Origin: Nitrospirota bacterium
Lineage (GTDB): Bacteria > Nitrospirota > Thermodesulfovibrionia > SZUA-242
Length of the DNA: 39,226 nucleotides
Assembly (NCBI GenBank): GCA_003235715.1
Contig: QJVM01000052.1
Location: forward strand, 1-39,226
Reading direction: 5' to 3'
A program made the translations under genes and the position numbers. Below are positions 18,774 through 36,637 of the stretch, piece by piece. The notes under the pieces were generated by a model. It made no database searches. It was not told the origin of the DNA and worked only from the letters and a program-made list of their open reading frames with translations. Position 1 is the first letter of the stretch. Every line of letters starts with the position of its first letter.

Positions 18774-21700
18774 ATGTCCTCGCACGTTCCTTCTTCCGAG
18801 GCTCTGCGCGTCAATATCGACAAGAGTCGTTTTGACGCGCCCGTTTCCGAGAGATACCGGCCCATCGAAGATGTGATGGAGCGTTTCCAGGGGCTGCAGG
18901 AAGGCTTGAGCACGTTTCTCAGGGAGCTTTCCCATCCCATGCGGAACTGGGGCTTCATCGTGGCGGAAACCCGGTCCTTTGCGCTCAGTTATTTTTACGA
19001 AATGAAGGAACACCGGCTGGGTCCAACGGCAGCCCAGCTCTACGGTGAGATCCTCCTTGAGGCCGTGGAAAGGGCACGCGAGTCCGACGTTCGCCATGAA
19101 GCTGCAAAGACGCTGCAGCTCTTCTGGCAGAAGATTCTGAAGGATGCCGGCGAGGAGCTGCCCGGGTTTCTTCCGGCTCTGGAACAGGGCTTTGAAATCT
19201 TGACGGATTTGCCGGAGGATCAGTTCACGGTCTTTGCCCGGGGGTACTATTCCCTCAGTTCTCTTGCAGAACTCTACCTCGGGCAGACCGACGAGACGGC
19301 TCAATCCCCGGCCCTGAACCGGCTCATGGTCCGTTATCTTTCTCATTCCTATGCGTACTGGTTGTCCGAAAAGGACCCGCGCCAGTGGTTTCTCGAAGAG
19401 GCGGGTACAGACCTTCCGGATACCCTGGACGACCTGTTCGTTCCCATCTCCCATGAGAGACTGACCCGACACCAGCAGGCCCTTGAGGAAACCCTCCATA
19501 GAGAGGGCCCGGTTCGAACCCGGCTTGCGGCCCTTCTCCAGCTTCCGGGTTTCACGGATATCCGGGCGGCTTATGAAAGGGTTCCCTCTGAGGTCGGTCG
19601 CCGGGTGCCGGACGAGGCGCGTGCGCACCGCCATGAACTGCTTCTTCTGTTTCTCATCATGAACCGGCCCGGTCTTTCGCTGATTCATGAGGAGTCGCTG
19701 CGAAGGATCAACCGGGTGATCGGATGGCTTGTGGGCCATCAGGATTTCAGAGAGATTCAGGAGCTTATCCGAAAGACCCTCGGGATTCTCGAGCAGAGCG
19801 TCCGATCGTATCCTGATACGGTTCTGGTCTGTGTCCTGAACCTGGGCCGCGGAGTCTACCGGACGGACAACAGCGACCTCGTGAACTTCTTCAACGAGTC
19901 GGTCGTGAACCTGGGGTTCCAGACTCCGGACTTCAGAGGGATCAGCCGTGATTGGCAGGTAGAGAGTAACGTGGCGCATATCCGGAACATCCGGACGTGG
20001 ATGGAACTGGTCAAACTCAACCCCCGGTGGTCCAAGAACCTTCTGTCCTCCCTGGTTATCCACCTGTCCGTCAGCGGAGTGCTCATCAAGGACACGGACC
20101 TGTTTCCCCGGGATATCACGTCCTTTCTCAACGGGGATATCGGGCAGGTCTATAACCTTGCCAAGCAGTTACTGCGGCTCTTTCCGTCCTACTTCAACGA
20201 GATCGGGGCCGAGGGCCAACTCCGCGACATCTCGACCCGGATAGACGAGGCCTGCGGCCGGCGCGATGTGCTCGTGCATTTCCTGCGGAAGCAGGCCCAT
20301 GTGGAAAGTTCGAGCGAAACGGTCGGCCTCATGGAGGCCGTTCTCGAGTTCTGGAGGACCCGCTCCCGTGAGGGGCTCAGGAATTTTCTGCCGGCCGACG
20401 TTTTTGACGAAGTCCGGGAACGGGGGCCTTACGTGGACGGCGTGCATGAAGTCCTGGAGTCCCTGATGACATCGCAAGGCCTGAGCGCCGTGAACGACCT
20501 GCTTACGCTGGAGGTGGATCTTGTCCCCGAACTGAGGAACCGCTTCGGACGGGAACGGGACCTGGACGTGGAGCGGGTCGCTCTCGCGGTCTCCTTCTAC
20601 CGCCAGCTCAGCGAGAAGTACTGCACGGGATTCTGCGAAATTCACGATTATGTGAATCAGGCCATGGATTCAGGGTTACCCCACCTGGAGGCCCTGCGGG
20701 GTTCCCTGGACGAAGCGAACCCTTACCGAAGGCTGGCCGGTTTGCTGGCCTACCTTAAAGAACTGAAAGGACTTATTCTCTCACGCCGAGAATTTGAGGC
20801 CCATGAAGACATCTACCACAAACGTCATTTCTCGGTGGACATCCCCTCCATGTACGGAAGTTATCATGAGCCCAAGTTCGATGCCCTGGCTCTCACCTTG
20901 CGTCTTGAAGTTGTGGTGAATGCCCTCTTCGAGGATGGAGTCCGAAACCTTGACCTTGAGTTCATTACGCGGGCCACGTTTCAGGAGATATACAACTACC
21001 TCGTGCTGTTTTCAGAGGCTCTGAGTGTGGACGGTATTTCGACCCGTGAGTTTGATGGCCAGCTTACCCTGCTGGAGAGGGCCCTGCGGGTCCGGCTTTT
21101 CACTTTCACCCAGTATGTGGACATCTTCCGCGGGTTTACCCAGGTGGTCCAGAATATCTTGAGCGATTATTTCAACAAGATTCACCGCCATAACCTGCTC
21201 AGGATTGTGGACCGGATCACCCAGGACCGGCTTCTCCCGAAGTATCGACATCCCGGGGCCCGTTCCGAGGAACTCTTTCACCAGGTTTCGGAAACCTTCA
21301 TGCGCGACAGCATCGCGTCCTCCCTCGGACTGCAACGGCTGGACCTGTTTCTCTCCCGGATTCTGAGCACGCTTTACCGTCAGGCCGACAAGCTGCCTCA
21401 GGACCGACATTACCTGCTGCTCACATACAACCCCGAGGATGTGGTGATGTCGGTTCAGAAGGCCGAGGACCGGCTCAAGGACATCGTGCACCTGGGAAAC
21501 AAGGGGATGAATCTGGTGCGGATGAGCGAACTCGGTCTGCCGGTACCGCCGGCCTTCATTGTTACGACGGAGGTGTTCACCTGCCGGGAACTGGTCGAGA
21601 GCTACGCTCCGGCCCAGAAGCACTTCAGGGCCCGGGTGGCCGAGCAGATCTCGCTCATCGAGAAGGCCACCGGAAAGAGATTCGGGGACCCGGCCAACCC

Positions 21701-22958
21701 TCTCGTGGTTTCGGTCCGCAGCGGAGCGGCGGTTTCGCATCCGGGCATGATGGATTCGTACCTGAACGTGGGAACCAACGAGGAGATCGTTACGGGCATG
21801 GTGGGGCTCGGCCATGATGGCTGGTTCGCATGGGACTGTTACCGCCGCTTTCTCCAGTCCTACGGGATGTCCTATGGAATTGAGCGGGATGAATTCGACC
21901 GCATTATCGAGGAACACAAGCACCGGTGTGGTGTTCCGCTCAAGAAGAATTTCACACCCGGCCAGATGCAGGAGGTGGCCCGGGGATACCGCGCTTTCAT
22001 CGAGGGCCGCGGTCTGCAGGTTCCGGATGACCCCCGGGAGCAACTTCATGTGGCCATTCAGCAGGTTCTGAACTCCTGGAATTCGGAAAGAGCGCGGGCG
22101 TACCGGAAGATCATGGGAATTTCGGACGACTGGGGCACCTCGGTCACGGTACAGGCCATGATTTTTGGAAACCTCTCCCATGAAGCCGGTTCGGGAGTCA
22201 TGTTCACGCATAATCCCCAGCTCTCCGTAGACCTCATCCGGCCCTGGGGCGATTACACCGTCGGCAATCAGGGAGAGGATGTGGTTTCAGGTCTGGTGAC
22301 GACCTTTCCCATTTCAAACTATCAGGCCGAGATGGAAAACCGATCGCCTGCCCAGACCCTCGAGAACCGTTTTCCGAAAATTTACGGGGCGCTGCTCGAT
22401 GCGGCCCGCGTTCTGACCTATGACAGTGGCTGGAGCCCCCAGGACATGGAGTTCACCTTCGAGGGACCAGAGGCCTCACGGCTCTATCTCCTCCAGACGC
22501 GGGATATGGAGATGAGGGAGCGGAAACAGGTCCCGACCTTTGAAAGCGCAGACGCCATGAGCCGGCAATTCCTCGGCCATGGACTTGGCGTGGCCGGTGG
22601 AGCCCTATCGGGTCGGGCGGTGTTCAACCTCGAAGATATCGAACACTGGCGGCGGGAAGAACCGGAGACGAAGCTTATTCTCATCCGGGGCGATACGGTT
22701 CCAGATGATATCCGTGAGGTTTCCGCGGCGGACGGGTTGCTTACGGCCAGGGGAGGAGCGACCTCCCACGCCGCCATCGTGGCCAGCCGACTCGGAAAAA
22801 CCTGCGTGGTCGGCTGCACGGATCTCGTATGCCTGCAGAAGGAGAGGAAATTTGTGCTGGGGCAGGAGGTCGTGATGGTGGGGGACGCCATCAGCATCGA
22901 TGGGGCGGGAGGGGCCGTGTACCTGGGATTCATGAAAGTCAGGGAGGAGGGGTTCTGA
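18774..22958 (+). CDS. PPDK/PEP-synthase-like dikinase: ~880-aa unassigned N-terminal region, ATP-grasp (PEP/pyruvate-binding) domain, C-terminal phosphohistidine swivel domain; no PEP-utilising TIM barrel
   Basis: HLGNKGMNLVRMSELGLPVPPAFIVTTEVF, NPLVVSVRSGAAVSHPGMMDSYLNVG, QDMEFTFEGPEASRLYLLQTRDME, LTARGGATSHAAIVASRLGKTCVVGC (His codon 22767-22769, residue 1332); ORF ends 62 residues after this His. Confidence 0.9.
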   Translation: MSSHVPSSEALRVNIDKSRFDAPVSERYRPIEDVMERFQGLQEGLSTFLRELSHPMRNWGFIVAETRSFALSYFYEMKEHRLGPTAAQLYGEILLEAVERARESDVRHEAAKTLQLFWQKILKDAGEELPGFLPALEQGFEILTDLPEDQFTVFARGYYSLSSLAELYLGQTDETAQSPALNRLMVRYLSHSYAYWLSEKDPRQWFLEEAGTDLPDTLDDLFVPISHERLTRHQQALEETLHREGPVRTRLAALLQLPGFTDIRAAYERVPSEVGRRVPDEARAHRHELLLLFLIMNRPGLSLIHEESLRRINRVIGWLVGHQDFREIQELIRKTLGILEQSVRSYPDTVLVCVLNLGRGVYRTDNSDLVNFFNESVVNLGFQTPDFRGISRDWQVESNVAHIRNIRTWMELVKLNPRWSKNLLSSLVIHLSVSGVLIKDTDLFPRDITSFLNGDIGQVYNLAKQLLRLFPSYFNEIGAEGQLRDISTRIDEACGRRDVLVHFLRKQAHVESSSETVGLMEAVLEFWRTRSREGLRNFLPADVFDEVRERGPYVDGVHEVLESLMTSQGLSAVNDLLTLEVDLVPELRNRFGRERDLDVERVALAVSFYRQLSEKYCTGFCEIHDYVNQAMDSGLPHLEALRGSLDEANPYRRLAGLLAYLKELKGLILSRREFEAHEDIYHKRHFSVDIPSMYGSYHEPKFDALALTLRLEVVVNALFEDGVRNLDLEFITRATFQEIYNYLVLFSEALSVDGISTREFDGQLTLLERALRVRLFTFTQYVDIFRGFTQVVQNILSDYFNKIHRHNLLRIVDRITQDRLLPKYRHPGARSEELFHQVSETFMRDSIASSLGLQRLDLFLSRILSTLYRQADKLPQDRHYLLLTYNPEDVVMSVQKAEDRLKDIVHLGNKGMNLVRMSELGLPVPPAFIVTTEVFTCRELVESYAPAQKHFRARVAEQISLIEKATGKRFGDPANPLVVSVRSGAAVSHPGMMDSYLNVGTNEEIVTGMVGLGHDGWFAWDCYRRFLQSYGMSYGIERDEFDRIIEEHKHRCGVPLKKNFTPGQMQEVARGYRAFIEGRGLQVPDDPREQLHVAIQQVLNSWNSERARAYRKIMGISDDWGTSVTVQAMIFGNLSHEAGSGVMFTHNPQLSVDLIRPWGDYTVGNQGEDVVSGLVTTFPISNYQAEMENRSPAQTLENRFPKIYGALLDAARVLTYDSGWSPQDMEFTFEGPEASRLYLLQTRDMEMRERKQVPTFESADAMSRQFLGHGLGVAGGALSGRAVFNLEDIEHWRREEPETKLILIRGDTVPDDIREVSAADGLLTARGGATSHAAIVASRLGKTCVVGCTDLVCLQKERKFVLGQEVVMVGDAISIDGAGGAVYLGFMKVREEGF

Positions 22959-24239
22959 ATGGAAACACAGCGGCAGGTGCTGGGGATCAACGGGCTTGGC
23001 CGGATCGGGAAACTCACGCTGTGGCACCACCTGGCCCATAGGACGTTCAACCGGATCGTGGTAAACGTGGGGCGGGAGGTCGGGCAGTCGCTCAAGGACG
23101 TGGCGGACTATATTCGGAGGGATTCCACGTACGGGTCACTCCGGGGCTATCTCCACGGGTTTCGGGATCACGAAGTCATCACGGACCTCCGCGAAGCCGA
23201 AGGAATGATGAATATCGACGGAATCGAAGTCACCGTGCTTCGGCATTCCCGGAACCCCATGGAGCTCGACTGGCGCCGGTATGGCGTGGACGTGGTCGTG
23301 GACGCAACGGGGAAATTCCTTGACCCCACCCTTGATGCGGACCATGCCAAGGGCGCTATCCGCGGTCACCTTGAGGCGGGAGCCCGGGTCGTGATTGCCT
23401 CGGCCCCGTTCAAGGTCAAGGACAAGGCTGCGCCCTGGCCGGCCGATTCGGTGACGGTCATCAAGGGGATCAACGAATGTGACTGGGACCCCTCCCGTCA
23501 TCGCCTTGTTTCCGCGGCGTCGTGCACGACGACCTGCCTTGCCCACATGATGAAGCCGCTCCTGGACACCCTTGGAGCAAAGCGGGTCCTTACGGCCTCC
23601 ATGGCCACGGTTCACGCGGCCACAGGCTCACAGGAAGTTCTTGACCGGCTGGCCGACAAGGGCGCGCGGGACCTCCGAAAGAATCGGAGTACGTTCAATA
23701 ACATTATTCTTACGACCACCGGCGCGGCCACGACCCTGGCCCTCGTACTACCGGCCATGAAACACATCGGATTCATGGCCGAGTCTGTACGGGTCCCGAC
23801 GACCAGCGGGTCGCTCATCATCCTGGCCGTCAATATCCAGGAGGAAGTTGGCGGCCGGACGATCAACAAGGACGTGGTCAAAGGGATATACCGTGAGGTT
23901 TCACGGAAGGATCCGAACCGCTACCTCGTATATACGGAGGAGCAGAATGTGTCCTCCGACATTGTTTCCTATCCGCGTGCCGGGGCTATTATTGAGGGAC
24001 ACGAGATTCATACCCGGACCGCGGAGATTACACTGGATGCCAGCCGGATCGCGGGGATCAAGAAGGAGTACCTCGAGGATCTGAAGGATTTGACCCTTCG
24101 GGTTCCCGTAACCCAGACGGTGGTGTACGGCTGGTACGACAATGAACTCGGCGGCTACGTCCACATGCTGGGGGAGCTGACACGATACATATCCGCGAAT
24201 CTGGAGAACCAGAGCCCGGAGTGCCGAACCGGCGTTTGA
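22959..24239 (+). CDS. Divergent glyceraldehyde-3-phosphate dehydrogenase family protein (426 aa)
   Basis: GINGLGRIGKLTLWHHL, SAASCTTTCLAHMMKPL (catalytic Cys), MATVHAATGSQ (catalytic His), TTTGAATTLALVLPAM, VRVPTTSGSLIILAVN, YGWYDNELGGYVHMLGELTRYI. ATG immediately follows the upstream TGA (22956-22961 TGAATG). Confidence 0.9.
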   Translation: METQRQVLGINGLGRIGKLTLWHHLAHRTFNRIVVNVGREVGQSLKDVADYIRRDSTYGSLRGYLHGFRDHEVITDLREAEGMMNIDGIEVTVLRHSRNPMELDWRRYGVDVVVDATGKFLDPTLDADHAKGAIRGHLEAGARVVIASAPFKVKDKAAPWPADSVTVIKGINECDWDPSRHRLVSAASCTTTCLAHMMKPLLDTLGAKRVLTASMATVHAATGSQEVLDRLADKGARDLRKNRSTFNNIILTTTGAATTLALVLPAMKHIGFMAESVRVPTTSGSLIILAVNIQEEVGGRTINKDVVKGIYREVSRKDPNRYLVYTEEQNVSSDIVSYPRAGAIIEGHEIHTRTAEITLDASRIAGIKKEYLEDLKDLTLRVPVTQTVVYGWYDNELGGYVHMLGELTRYISANLENQSPECRTGV

Positions 24240-33925: not shown

Positions 33926-36637
33926 ATGAAACAGGTCACCTTGACAATCAACGGGAAGTCGGTCAAGACCTCGCCGCGTTCCACGATTCTCATAGCCGCG
34001 CGCTCTGCCGGTTTCCGAATTCCCACGCTCTGTTATCATCCCCGGCTTGCCTCAGTGGGGTCCTGCCGGGTCTGTGTTGTGGAGATTCAGGGCCGGGGAA
34101 ACCTTGCGGCCTCGTGCGTTACTCCGGTGGCCGACGGCATGGTCGTGCGCACGGATTCGGAGCGGGTCGTGGCCGCCCGGCGCCTGGTGGTCGAACTTCT
34201 TCTGGCCGGAGGGGAGCACAACTGTTCCCTCTGTGCCGCGAGCGGCGACTGCGAACTTCAGAACCTGGCCTACGAACTTGGAATCGAGAAGCTTGATTTC
34301 CCGGTGGAGGCACCCGGATATCCGAGGGACACCTCGAACGCGATGATAGAAAGGGACCTGAACAAATGTGTGCTTTGCGGCCGCTGCGTAAGGGCCTGTA
34401 ATGAGGTCCAGGTCAATGAAGTGATCGATATAGGCTATCGCGGCGCCCGGGCCAAGATTGTGACGGCTTTTGACCGGAATTACGGAGATTCGGACTGTGT
34501 TTTCTGCGGTGAATGCGTATCTGTCTGCCCCACGGGGGCTCTCAGGGAGAAGGCCGCACGCTTCAAGGGAAGACCCTGGGAGTTTCAGAAAACGCGAACC
34601 ACCTGTGTCTACTGCGGGACAGGGTGCCAGCTGGACGTGAATGTTCGGGACGGTCGGGTCGTGAAGGTCACGTCGGATTTCCGGCACGGCCCCCCGAACT
34701 ACGGTAGCCTCTGCGCCAAGGGCCGGTTTGCCTACGACTTCATCCATCATCCGGACCGGCTGACCACGCCCCTCATCAAGGAAGACGATGAGTTCCGGGA
34801 GGCCACATGGGACGAGGCCATGGACCTTGTGGTGCTCGGCTTGTCGGCCATCCGGAACCAGGAAGGCCCGGATGCCATCGGTGTCCTTGCTTCGGCCCGC
34901 TGCACGAACGAGGAGAATTATTTGCTCCAGAAGTTCACGCGGGCCTGCCTCGGGACGAACAACATCGACCACTGCGCCCGGCTTTGACACGCTTCCACGG
35001 TGGCAGGTCTTGCCGCCTCTTTCGGTTCGGGAGCCATGACCAACTCTATTTCCGACCTCGAGCATTCGGAGGTCATCCTGGTCACCGGCTCGAATACGAC
35101 GGAAATGCACCCCGTGATATCGAGTGCTCTCAAGCGTGCGGTGAGGAAACGAGGGGCGGAGCTTATCCTCGTGGATCCGCGGAAGATACGACTCCAGCGC
35201 TACGCCAGCGCCTGGCTGAGGCCCAAGCCTGGTACCGACGTGGCCTGGATCAACGGGCTCTTGCACGTGATTCTTCGGGACGGGCTCCAGAACGATACCT
35301 TTATCCGGGACCGCACGCAGGGGTTCGAGGAAATGGCGGAACTGGTCAAACGCTATACCCCTGCGCATGTGGAGGAAATTACCGGAATTCCGGCTGCGGA
35401 CATCGAACGGGCAGGAAGGCTGTACGGCCGGGCCAAGAAGGCGTCCATCGTCTATGCCATGGGAATCACCCAGCACACCACGGGAACGGACAACGTTAAG
35501 TCGCTCGCGAATCTGGCCATGCTGTGCGGAAACATTGGCATCGCCGGGGGCGGCGTCAATCCGCTCAGGGGTCAGAACAACGTCCAGGGAGCCTGTGATA
35601 TGGGGGCTCTTCCCAATGTATACAGCGGCTATCAGCAGGTGGGCGATGCTGCGGTCCGGGAACGAATGGCCCTTTTCTGGAACGTTCCCCAACTTCCCAA
35701 GGTCCCGGGAAAGACCCTCACCGAGATCACGGCAGGCGTGCTCTCCGGCCAGGTCAAGGCCATGTATATCGTGGGCGAGAATCCCATGCTCTCCGACCCC
35801 GATCTCCGCCACCTGAAAGGGGCGCTCAGGAATCTTCATTTCCTTGTGGTCCAGGACATCTTTATGACAGAGACCGCGGCCATGGCCGACGTCGTTCTGC
35901 CAGCGGCTTCCTTTGCCGAGAAAGACGGAACCTTTACCAACACGGAACGCCGGATCCAGAGGGTGCGCAAGGCCATTGACCCGATCGGGGACTGCAGGGC
36001 GGACTGGAGTATCATCGCCGACCTTTCCACAAGGCTCGGGTTCCCTATGTCTTACGGTTCTCCGGAGGCGATCATGGACGAAATTGCCCGGGTGACGCCG
36101 AGCTACGGGGGGGTGAGCTACCGCCGCATCGAGGGTGTGGGGGTCCAGTGGCCCTGCCCGACACCTGAACATCCGGGGACTCCCATCCTCCATAAGGAAT
36201 CATTCACCCGGGGGAAGGGCGTGTTTCATGCCATTGACTTTGAACCGCCCCCCGAGGTGCCGGATGCCGAGTACCCTCTCTATCTGTCCACTGGCAGGGT
36301 TCTCTACCACTGGCACACCGGGAGCATGACCCGTCGGTCCGCCGGAATGAGCGAGAGGGTCAATCGCTGTGAGATGGAGATCTCGGCCCATGACGCGGCG
36401 AAACTCGGACTGGAAAACGGTCAGGAAGCGCTGGTTTCATCGCGCCGCGGCCAGATCGCCGTAACCGTGACCGTGAGCGAGAAAGCGGTTCGGGGAACGG
36501 TGTTCATCCCGTTCCATTTTGCGGAAGCGGCCGTGAACGAACTGACTCACGGCCTCAGGGATCCGGTTGCCAAGATTCCCGGGATCAAGGTCTGCGCGGT
36601 AAAGGTGGAACCGGCCCCGGTCTCCGAAAGCCGATAA
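33926..36637 (+). CDS. Selenocysteine-containing formate dehydrogenase catalytic subunit (NuoG-like N-terminus plus molybdopterin domain); TGA 34985-34987 read as Sec (residue 354 of 903)
   Basis: The two track ORFs 33926-34987 and 35000-36637 are in the same frame and join as [32 protein letters not shown], the FDH active-site Sec/Cys context (compare E. coli FdhF NNVDCCARVUHGPSVAGL). N-term CRVCVVEIQG, CSLCAASGDCELQ, CVLCGRCVRAC, CVFCGECVSVCP, CVYCGTGCQLDV. Confidence 0.95.
34999..35017 (+). promoter_or_regulatory. Bacterial SECIS element
   Basis: 7-bp stem ggtggca/tgccgcc (one G-U) closing a GGTCT loop; loop begins 18 nt after the TGA, as in E. coli fdhF (UGA-18 nt-GGUCU). Confidence 0.9.

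Follow-up and report, generated by a model that had tools for sequence, protein, structure and literature searches.

Swivel-histidine dikinases are known to switch substrate through exchange of their acceptor domain, but few such swaps have been described. Glucan water dikinase, in which the acceptor is bound by the N-terminal region, has starch-binding domains and a reverse domain order, with the swivel before the ATP-grasp. Rifampin phosphotransferase (RPH) carries a non-pyruvate acceptor module and the dikinase in one chain, the acceptor domain being inserted between the ATP-grasp and the swivel. The two-component dikinases HpeHI, CreHI and PpsAB lack the C-terminal PEP/pyruvate barrel of pyruvate phosphate dikinase (PPDK) and have a substrate site of another fold, but they are made of two chains, use a PEP-synthase-type ATP-grasp and act on phenolic substrates (PMC12167813). 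VadK (Rv1127c) of Mycobacterium also lacks the barrel; it is derived from PPDK, combines an ATP-grasp with a swivel and is tied to neighbouring metabolic enzymes (PMC13400623).

The window analyzed here, a whole stretch of 39,226 nucleotides from a Nitrospirota contig, contains a gene for an uncharacterized enzyme in which the ATP-using half of PPDK is kept and the pyruvate-binding half is replaced by a new helical domain. Its features, in window coordinates, are the following.

18774..22958, + strand: barrel-less dikinase, an open reading frame with an ATG start (1394 aa), supported by domain matches and by homologues of equal length
18774..19913, + strand: variable alpha-helical scaffold, aa 1-380, all helices in the AlphaFold model, with 1 family-invariant position in 380
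19914..20318, + strand: conserved patch A, part of the proposed acceptor site, aa 381-515, with 28 of 135 positions invariant in 91 sequences
20799..20903, + strand: conserved patch B, a predicted beta hairpin (E678-683/E692-697), aa 676-710, with 13 of 35 positions invariant
21474..22523, + strand: PPDK-type ATP-grasp domain, aa 901-1250, supported by PF01326, alignment, invariance and a fold match to 1kbl
22533..22946, + strand: phosphohistidine swivel domain, aa 1254-1391, supported by PF00391 and a fold match to 2fm4 (TM 0.83 by target)
22767..22769, + strand: codon of the catalytic H1332, in GGATSHAA, invariant in homologues
22959..24239, + strand: dikinase-paired glyceraldehyde-3-phosphate dehydrogenase (GAPDH), 426 aa, its ATG directly after the dikinase TGA, supported by family, active site, co-occurrence and adjacency

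Two Pfam matches delimit the catalytic half, PPDK_N (PF01326) at residues 907-1177 (1.4e-35) and the PEP-utilizers swivel domain (PF00391) at residues 1300-1377 (1.4e-16). Alignment equates K910, R982, R1025, E1226, Q1241 and R1243 of the ATP-grasp domain with K22, R92, R135, E323, Q335 and R337 of PPDK, to which the protein is 35-40% identical. The catalytic residues of both domains are retained and family-invariant, including the swivel histidine (H1332, numbered from column H1053 of an alignment whose first aligned residue is amino acid 280), which bears out the preliminary description, where ATP-grasp motifs and this histidine were read as kept. The predicted model overlays PPDK 1kbl (E 2.4e-28, rmsd 3.9, 541 columns), and the ATP-grasp domain also matches PDB entry 9pzl. 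Since 1kbl represents PPDK with its swivel at the nucleotide side (PMC5371819), we draw nothing about the acceptor from the model. The PPDK profile TIGR01828 gives 403 bits, below its curated cut-off of 843, versus 77 bits for the PEP synthase profile TIGR01418, and PEP synthases of the PDB align only from about residue 1213 onward. This half belongs to the PPDK type (Pi to PPi) and differs from the type found in RPH and PEP synthase, and we infer that the dikinase probably performs Pi/PPi-type chemistry.

The ATP-grasp and swivel lie side by side, the arrangement seen in PPDK, with no RPH-type domain between them; RPH belongs to another ATP-grasp subtype and its structural match to the protein is weak. 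The domain order is opposite to that of glucan water dikinase, and no starch-binding Pfam domains were found. The analogy initially drawn with these two enzymes gives way to VadK as the nearest described barrel-less relative, the ATP-grasp being PPDK-type. Unlike our protein, VadK consists of the two catalytic domains only, without a large N-terminal region, and its linked pathway is the methylcitrate cycle. The model NF004531 (PRK05878), which we take to cover VadK, reaches 332.9 bits against a curated cut-off of 456, and 880 residues are in excess.

No PEP/pyruvate TIM barrel (PF02896) was detected by Pfam scan in the dikinase, which ends 62 residues after H1332, or in the next gene, which encodes a GAPDH; no such barrel was found in the N-terminal region either, where the AlphaFold model is all-alpha and has no PDB fold match. 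The clear relationship of the ATP-grasp and swivel halves to PPDK could indicate a split or decayed PPDK, its barrel supplied by another gene or lost through truncation. However, the sole PF02896 barrel of the genome sits inside a separate, full canonical PPDK (open frame of 990 aa), which rules out a split in the source genome, and the PPDKs of the source's class form a clade separate from the barrel-less dikinase. Truncation is ruled out because homologues from two phyla, Nitrospirota and Desulfobacterota, lack the barrel in the same manner and share the length and end point of the protein; 564 confirmed pattern matches are dikinase homologues from these phyla. A split or decayed PPDK is therefore extremely improbable, and the early observation that the frame stops shortly after the swivel histidine, with no barrel there or in the neighbouring gene, is confirmed.

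Residues 1-896 have no match in Pfam, NCBIfam or PDB sequence profiles, nor by predicted fold in Foldseek. The AlphaFold model of this region (pLDDT 83) is all-alpha except for one hairpin, consistent with the initial impression of some 880 helical-looking residues without a recognized domain. In an alignment of 91 dikinase-family sequences, invariant positions make up 20.7% of patch A and 37.1% of patch B, compared with 16-18% of the catalytic domains and 0-5% of the rest of the N-terminal region. Both patches, conserved above the ATP-grasp and swivel domains, are rich in invariant Arg, Lys, His and Asp; the invariants include H402, D440, N453, R484, S487, T488, D491, D498, R505, K506, Q507 and H509 in patch A and K683, R684, H685, S692, Y697, E699 and K701 in patch B. 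In the genomes sampled, the patches were met only fused to dikinase modules. These findings support the interpretation that the N-terminal region is not an inert scaffold, its invariant charged patches resembling a second active site. At the level of sequence, the domain make-up, the intact catalytic residues, the lack of a barrel and the conserved second site are established. The earlier proposal of an acceptor module for a non-pyruvate substrate is supported by the missing barrel, the absence of truncation, the charged patches and their restriction to dikinase fusions, whereas the identity of the acceptor remains unproven. We infer that the acceptor site likely lies in the N-terminal domain; that H1332 can reach the patches is not shown. 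A deep sister clade (25-30% identity), for which no common gene neighbour was found, has the same conserved patches without the paired GAPDH, which means that phosphoryl transfer to the acceptor does not necessarily depend on a GAPDH. The conserved residues define a protein domain that is new and merits both a family entry and structure determination.

The paired GAPDH follows the dikinase on the same strand in 60 of the 62 testable loci. It is present in all 32 sampled Nitrospirota genomes with the dikinase and in none of the 48 without it (Fisher 5e-23, uncorrected for relatedness), persists where the two genes are unlinked (G175 and G253), and is present or absent jointly with the dikinase within families f1, f4, f5, f12 and f17. 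The ordinary gap of the source genome adjoins pgk, whereas the paired GAPDH adjoins the dikinase instead. Judged from these genomes, co-occurrence is obligate, and the GAPDH, listed in the preliminary description among the candidate acceptors, is a co-inherited specific enzyme and not a chance neighbour. The pairing hints at an energy-linked reaction beside glycolysis that is not yet known; a literature search on the two genes returned nothing about them as a pair.

Obligate pairing would also suit a dedicated target, as expected from a main rival explanation, regulatory phosphotransfer. Here the dikinase, like VadK, would phosphorylate itself on H1332 and thereby regulate a metabolic enzyme, its GAPDH partner, the N-terminal helices being a protein-docking and sensing module. 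VadK, a PPDK-derived kinase without pyruvate domain, interacts with neighbouring pathway enzymes (PMC13400623), and fold comparison of the N-terminal region reveals a solenoid-like fold with weak resemblance to exportin-type repeats. Against this interpretation, which we consider improbable, the dense invariant charged residues of the two patches are shared with the deep clade, in which this GAPDH is missing, and resemble a binding site for a small molecule more than a surface for docking the GAPDH.

Our best overall explanation, which falls only slightly short of an even chance, is that the two genes form one module, in which the dikinase has a new acceptor domain of its own and the GAPDH is dedicated to it. 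ATP and Pi would be converted to AMP and PPi by the PPDK-type ATP-grasp, leaving a phosphoryl group on H1332; the swivel would then deliver this group to an anion held between patches A and B of the N-terminal region, a task for which PPDK relies on its C-terminal barrel. The likeliest acceptor would be 3-phosphoglycerate, yielding 1,3-bisphosphoglycerate that the partner GAPDH would reduce, probably with NADPH. As the reaction would be nearly reversible, it could also run backwards and form ATP from AMP and PPi.

The paired GAPDH retains both GAPDH domains with their catalytic Cys and His; the Arg that binds the substrate phosphate (RVP) is kept as well, and Gly-Arg stands where the NAD-binding Asp is normally found. 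These residues were assigned by comparison with the canonical GAPDH of the source genome and from PDB alignments. Because it keeps the C3-phosphate-binding and catalytic residues, it points to glyceraldehyde-3-phosphate/1,3-bisphosphoglycerate. That 3-phosphoglycerate and 1,3-bisphosphoglycerate are the substrate pair is nonetheless inferred, with no direct evidence for 3-phosphoglycerate, and remains a tentative assignment. The paired GAPDH is also divergent (298.8 bits with the GAPDH-I model TIGR01534, cut-off 367.2; 32% identity to the source genome's canonical GAPDH) and has insertions, hence its substrate may differ. The dikinase could then act on another substrate of the same pathway, for instance glyceraldehyde, glycerate or another carboxylate, with the GAPDH acting on the product or a related acyl phosphate. 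Architecture and linkage suit this alternative equally; the retained residues of the GAPDH speak against it, and we regard it as unlikely without being far-fetched. In its most specific form, our preferred two-gene module would be a phosphoglycerate dikinase that parallels phosphoglycerate kinase (PGK) but forms AMP and PPi, making or consuming 1,3-bisphosphoglycerate via phosphohistidine, with an acceptor fold not known before and a dedicated, probably NADP-type GAPDH; this remains doubtful, though possible.

Hundreds of environmental bacterial genomes from two phyla carry this barrel-less dikinase and its new acceptor domain, inherited with a specific GAPDH; Desulfosarcina alkanivorans PL12 is a cultured example that has both genes. 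Were 3-phosphoglycerate its substrate, a PPi-linked route would exist at the step credited to PGK, and the energy accounting of the sulfate reducers and magnetotactic Nitrospirota carrying the dikinase would change. A genuine phosphoglycerate dikinase would provide anaerobes near the energy limit with a second, thermodynamically distinct way through this central step of glycolysis and gluconeogenesis. The dikinase is not simply a needed replacement for PGK, an idea that we rejected because 45 of the 49 dikinase genomes also encode PGK and the source genome has a gap-pgk operon. One genome (G233) contains the dikinase and paired GAPDH without PGK and canonical GAPDH, which a missing contig explains equally well. 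A link to sulfate activation was also discarded as non-discriminating, since ATP sulfurylase occurs in 37 of 41 relatives whether or not they carry the dikinase.

The dikinase gene is followed without any spacer by the gene of its paired GAPDH:

18774-22958, + strand: dikinase, intact open reading frame of 1394 aa with an ATG start
22959-24239, + strand: paired GAPDH, 426 aa, starting at the first base after the dikinase stop codon

A Pfam scan of the whole dikinase identified PPDK_N at residues 907-1177 and a PEP-utilising swivel domain at 1300-1377 but no further significant domain, and the PEP/pyruvate barrel PF02896 was not found. The nearest NCBIfam model, pyruvate phosphate dikinase TIGR01828, scored 403 bits, far below its cut-off of 843, and the PEP synthase model only 77 bits. 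PDB matches were PPDK chains spanning residues 906-1391, in which K910, R982, R1025, E1226, Q1241 and R1243 align with PPDK K22, R92, R135, E323, Q335 and R337, all of which we take to be nucleotide-site residues. The phosphohistidine is H1332, within GGATSHAA, and 62 residues follow it. These results agree with the preliminary description of a protein that retains ATP-grasp, ends 62 residues after a swivel His at position 1332, and has no barrel there or in the next gene, which encodes the GAPDH.

Truncation of a PPDK, which homologues carrying a C-terminal barrel would have revealed according to that description, is ruled out given that close homologues (about 40-59% identity) are mostly 1350-1440 residues long and end at the same point. 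A barrel supplied by another gene is also ruled out, as the only PEP-utilizers_C barrel of this genome lies inside its canonical PPDK, a separate gene on another contig. The genome contains a further 878-aa open frame that weakly matches the swivel region (G000:C171:8176-8568), perhaps another dikinase of PEP-synthase or RPH type.

AlphaFold modelling of residues 1-896 (pLDDT 83, pTM 0.73) predicted helices and a single beta hairpin at 678-697. Foldseek of this model against PDB, a check the preliminary description had proposed, returned solenoid-like matches only, with TM-scores below 0.2, and sequence profiles found nothing in PDB, Pfam or NCBIfam. The region of about 880 residues thus remains without a known domain and helical, as first perceived, and conceals no PF02896-type barrel that would have refuted the initial reading. 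Conservation along the dikinase is very uneven, as seen from the positions identical in at least 95% of 91 sequences, deep sister clade included:

Invariant positions along the dikinase
aa 1-380: 1
aa 381-515 (patch A): 28 of 135
aa 516-675: 6 of 160
aa 676-710 (patch B): 13 of 35
aa 711-900: 10 of 190
ATP-grasp domain: 56 of 350
swivel domain: 26 of 144

The two patches include H402, D440, R484, S487, T488, D491, R505, K506, H509, K683, R684, H685, Y697, E699 and K701. The existence of a second conserved site in the N-terminal region is firm; judged from sequence alone, it has the appearance expected of a second active site that binds an anionic substrate. In a second model (residues 280-1394), the ATP-grasp and swivel half overlays PPDK 1kbl (E 2.4e-28, rmsd 3.9, 541 columns), which has its swivel turned to the nucleotide side (PMC5371819); the model therefore gives no acceptor position. 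Throughout the Nitrospirota sample the N-terminal region is joined to the dikinase only, except for an 89-aa fragment and a 312-aa copy of its variable part. The latter, a stand-alone protein without Pfam match (L064:7967-8905), is 41% identical to residues 7-275 of the variable scaffold, and its genome (G038) also encodes a full dikinase.

The linkage between dikinase and GAPDH is firm. Of the 62 loci where the dikinase end is complete and enough sequence follows, 60 have the paired GAPDH on the same strand within 700 bases (median gap 32 bases); no other neighbour is conserved across the family. Paired-type GAPDHs (55-67% identity to the window copy, versus 33-41% for canonical copies) occur in 32/32 Nitrospirota genomes with this dikinase, 0/13 with only a deep-clade dikinase and 0/35 without either (Fisher 5e-23, uncorrected for relatedness of genomes). 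Families f1, f4, f5, f12 and f17 each include members with and without the pair, and in two genomes (G175 and G253) both genes are present but unlinked. This GAPDH is the obligate partner of the dikinase. It has insertions and retains the catalytic Cys and His as well as the Arg that binds the substrate phosphate, while a conserved Gly-Arg replaces the Asp that selects NAD in the canonical enzyme, which suggests that it uses NADP. One genome with the pair (G233, stated completeness 100%) lacks PGK and canonical GAPDH, which may be an assembly gap.

PPDK converts ATP, Pi and an acceptor to AMP, PPi and phospho-acceptor via a phosphohistidine (PMC8100219). The first two partial reactions would be expected to be unchanged in the dikinase, but the acceptor must differ because the barrel is gone, and the patch pair would be the best candidate for its site. 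The most economical substrate pair would be 3PG/1,3-BPG, since the GAPDH partner keeps the G3P phosphate site and gap normally stands beside pgk, which it adjoins elsewhere in this genome; this remains a testable guess. As a phosphoryl donor, 1,3-BPG falls short of PEP by roughly 12 kJ/mol, from which we infer that the same chemistry acting on 3PG would be nearly reversible and thermodynamically less unfavourable than the PGK reaction. For PPDK, the cost of making PEP is about 20 kJ/mol (PMC8100219). Removal of PPi would presumably pull the reaction. Two observations count against 3PG: the patches also occur in the deep clade, where the GAPDH is missing, and PGK is kept in 45/49 dikinase genomes, so that the module would run in parallel with it. 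A divergent PGK-family protein (about 440-470 aa, E about 1e-70 to 1e-82) was observed in G302, G304, G314, G316, G333, G339 and G341, beside a normal PGK in some and as the only PGK found in G314, G316 and G333.

Among described proteins, VadK comes closest: it is a PPDK that has lost its pyruvate domain and turned into a regulatory histidine kinase linked to enzymes of the methylcitrate cycle (PMC13400623), but it has no large N-terminal domain. That swivel-His dikinases can use different acceptors by means of different folds is illustrated by rifampin phosphotransferase and the two-component HpeHI family (PMC4844700, PMC12167813). The dikinase works like this superfamily, yet none of the three has its N-terminal domain or a GAPDH partner, and membership tests ruled out PPDK, VadK and RPH. 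The open-licence literature yielded no paper on this pair. The family is real, widespread and uncharacterised, with a new, inferred acceptor domain and an obligate GAPDH partner.

Scanning one genome per species confirmed at least 564 relatives among at least 586 pattern matches, the best 80 being labelled Nitrospirota or Deltaproteobacteria/Desulfobacterales, including cultured Desulfosarcina. Candidatus Magnetominusculus shares its class with the window genome. A catalytic-domain tree, unrooted and hence silent on branching order, resolved three fully supported groups: GAPDH-linked dikinases, the deep sister clade and PPDKs. Deep-clade proteins (L054, L055, L057, L058, L060-L063, L068; 25-30% identity, mostly 1400-1510 aa) conserve the same patches without a paired GAPDH, and no neighbour common to these loci was found.

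Elsewhere in the window, a formate dehydrogenase-like molybdopterin oxidoreductase (33926-36637, + strand) is split into two ORFs of one frame by an in-frame TGA codon (34985-34987; CARL*HASTVAGL) that probably encodes selenocysteine.
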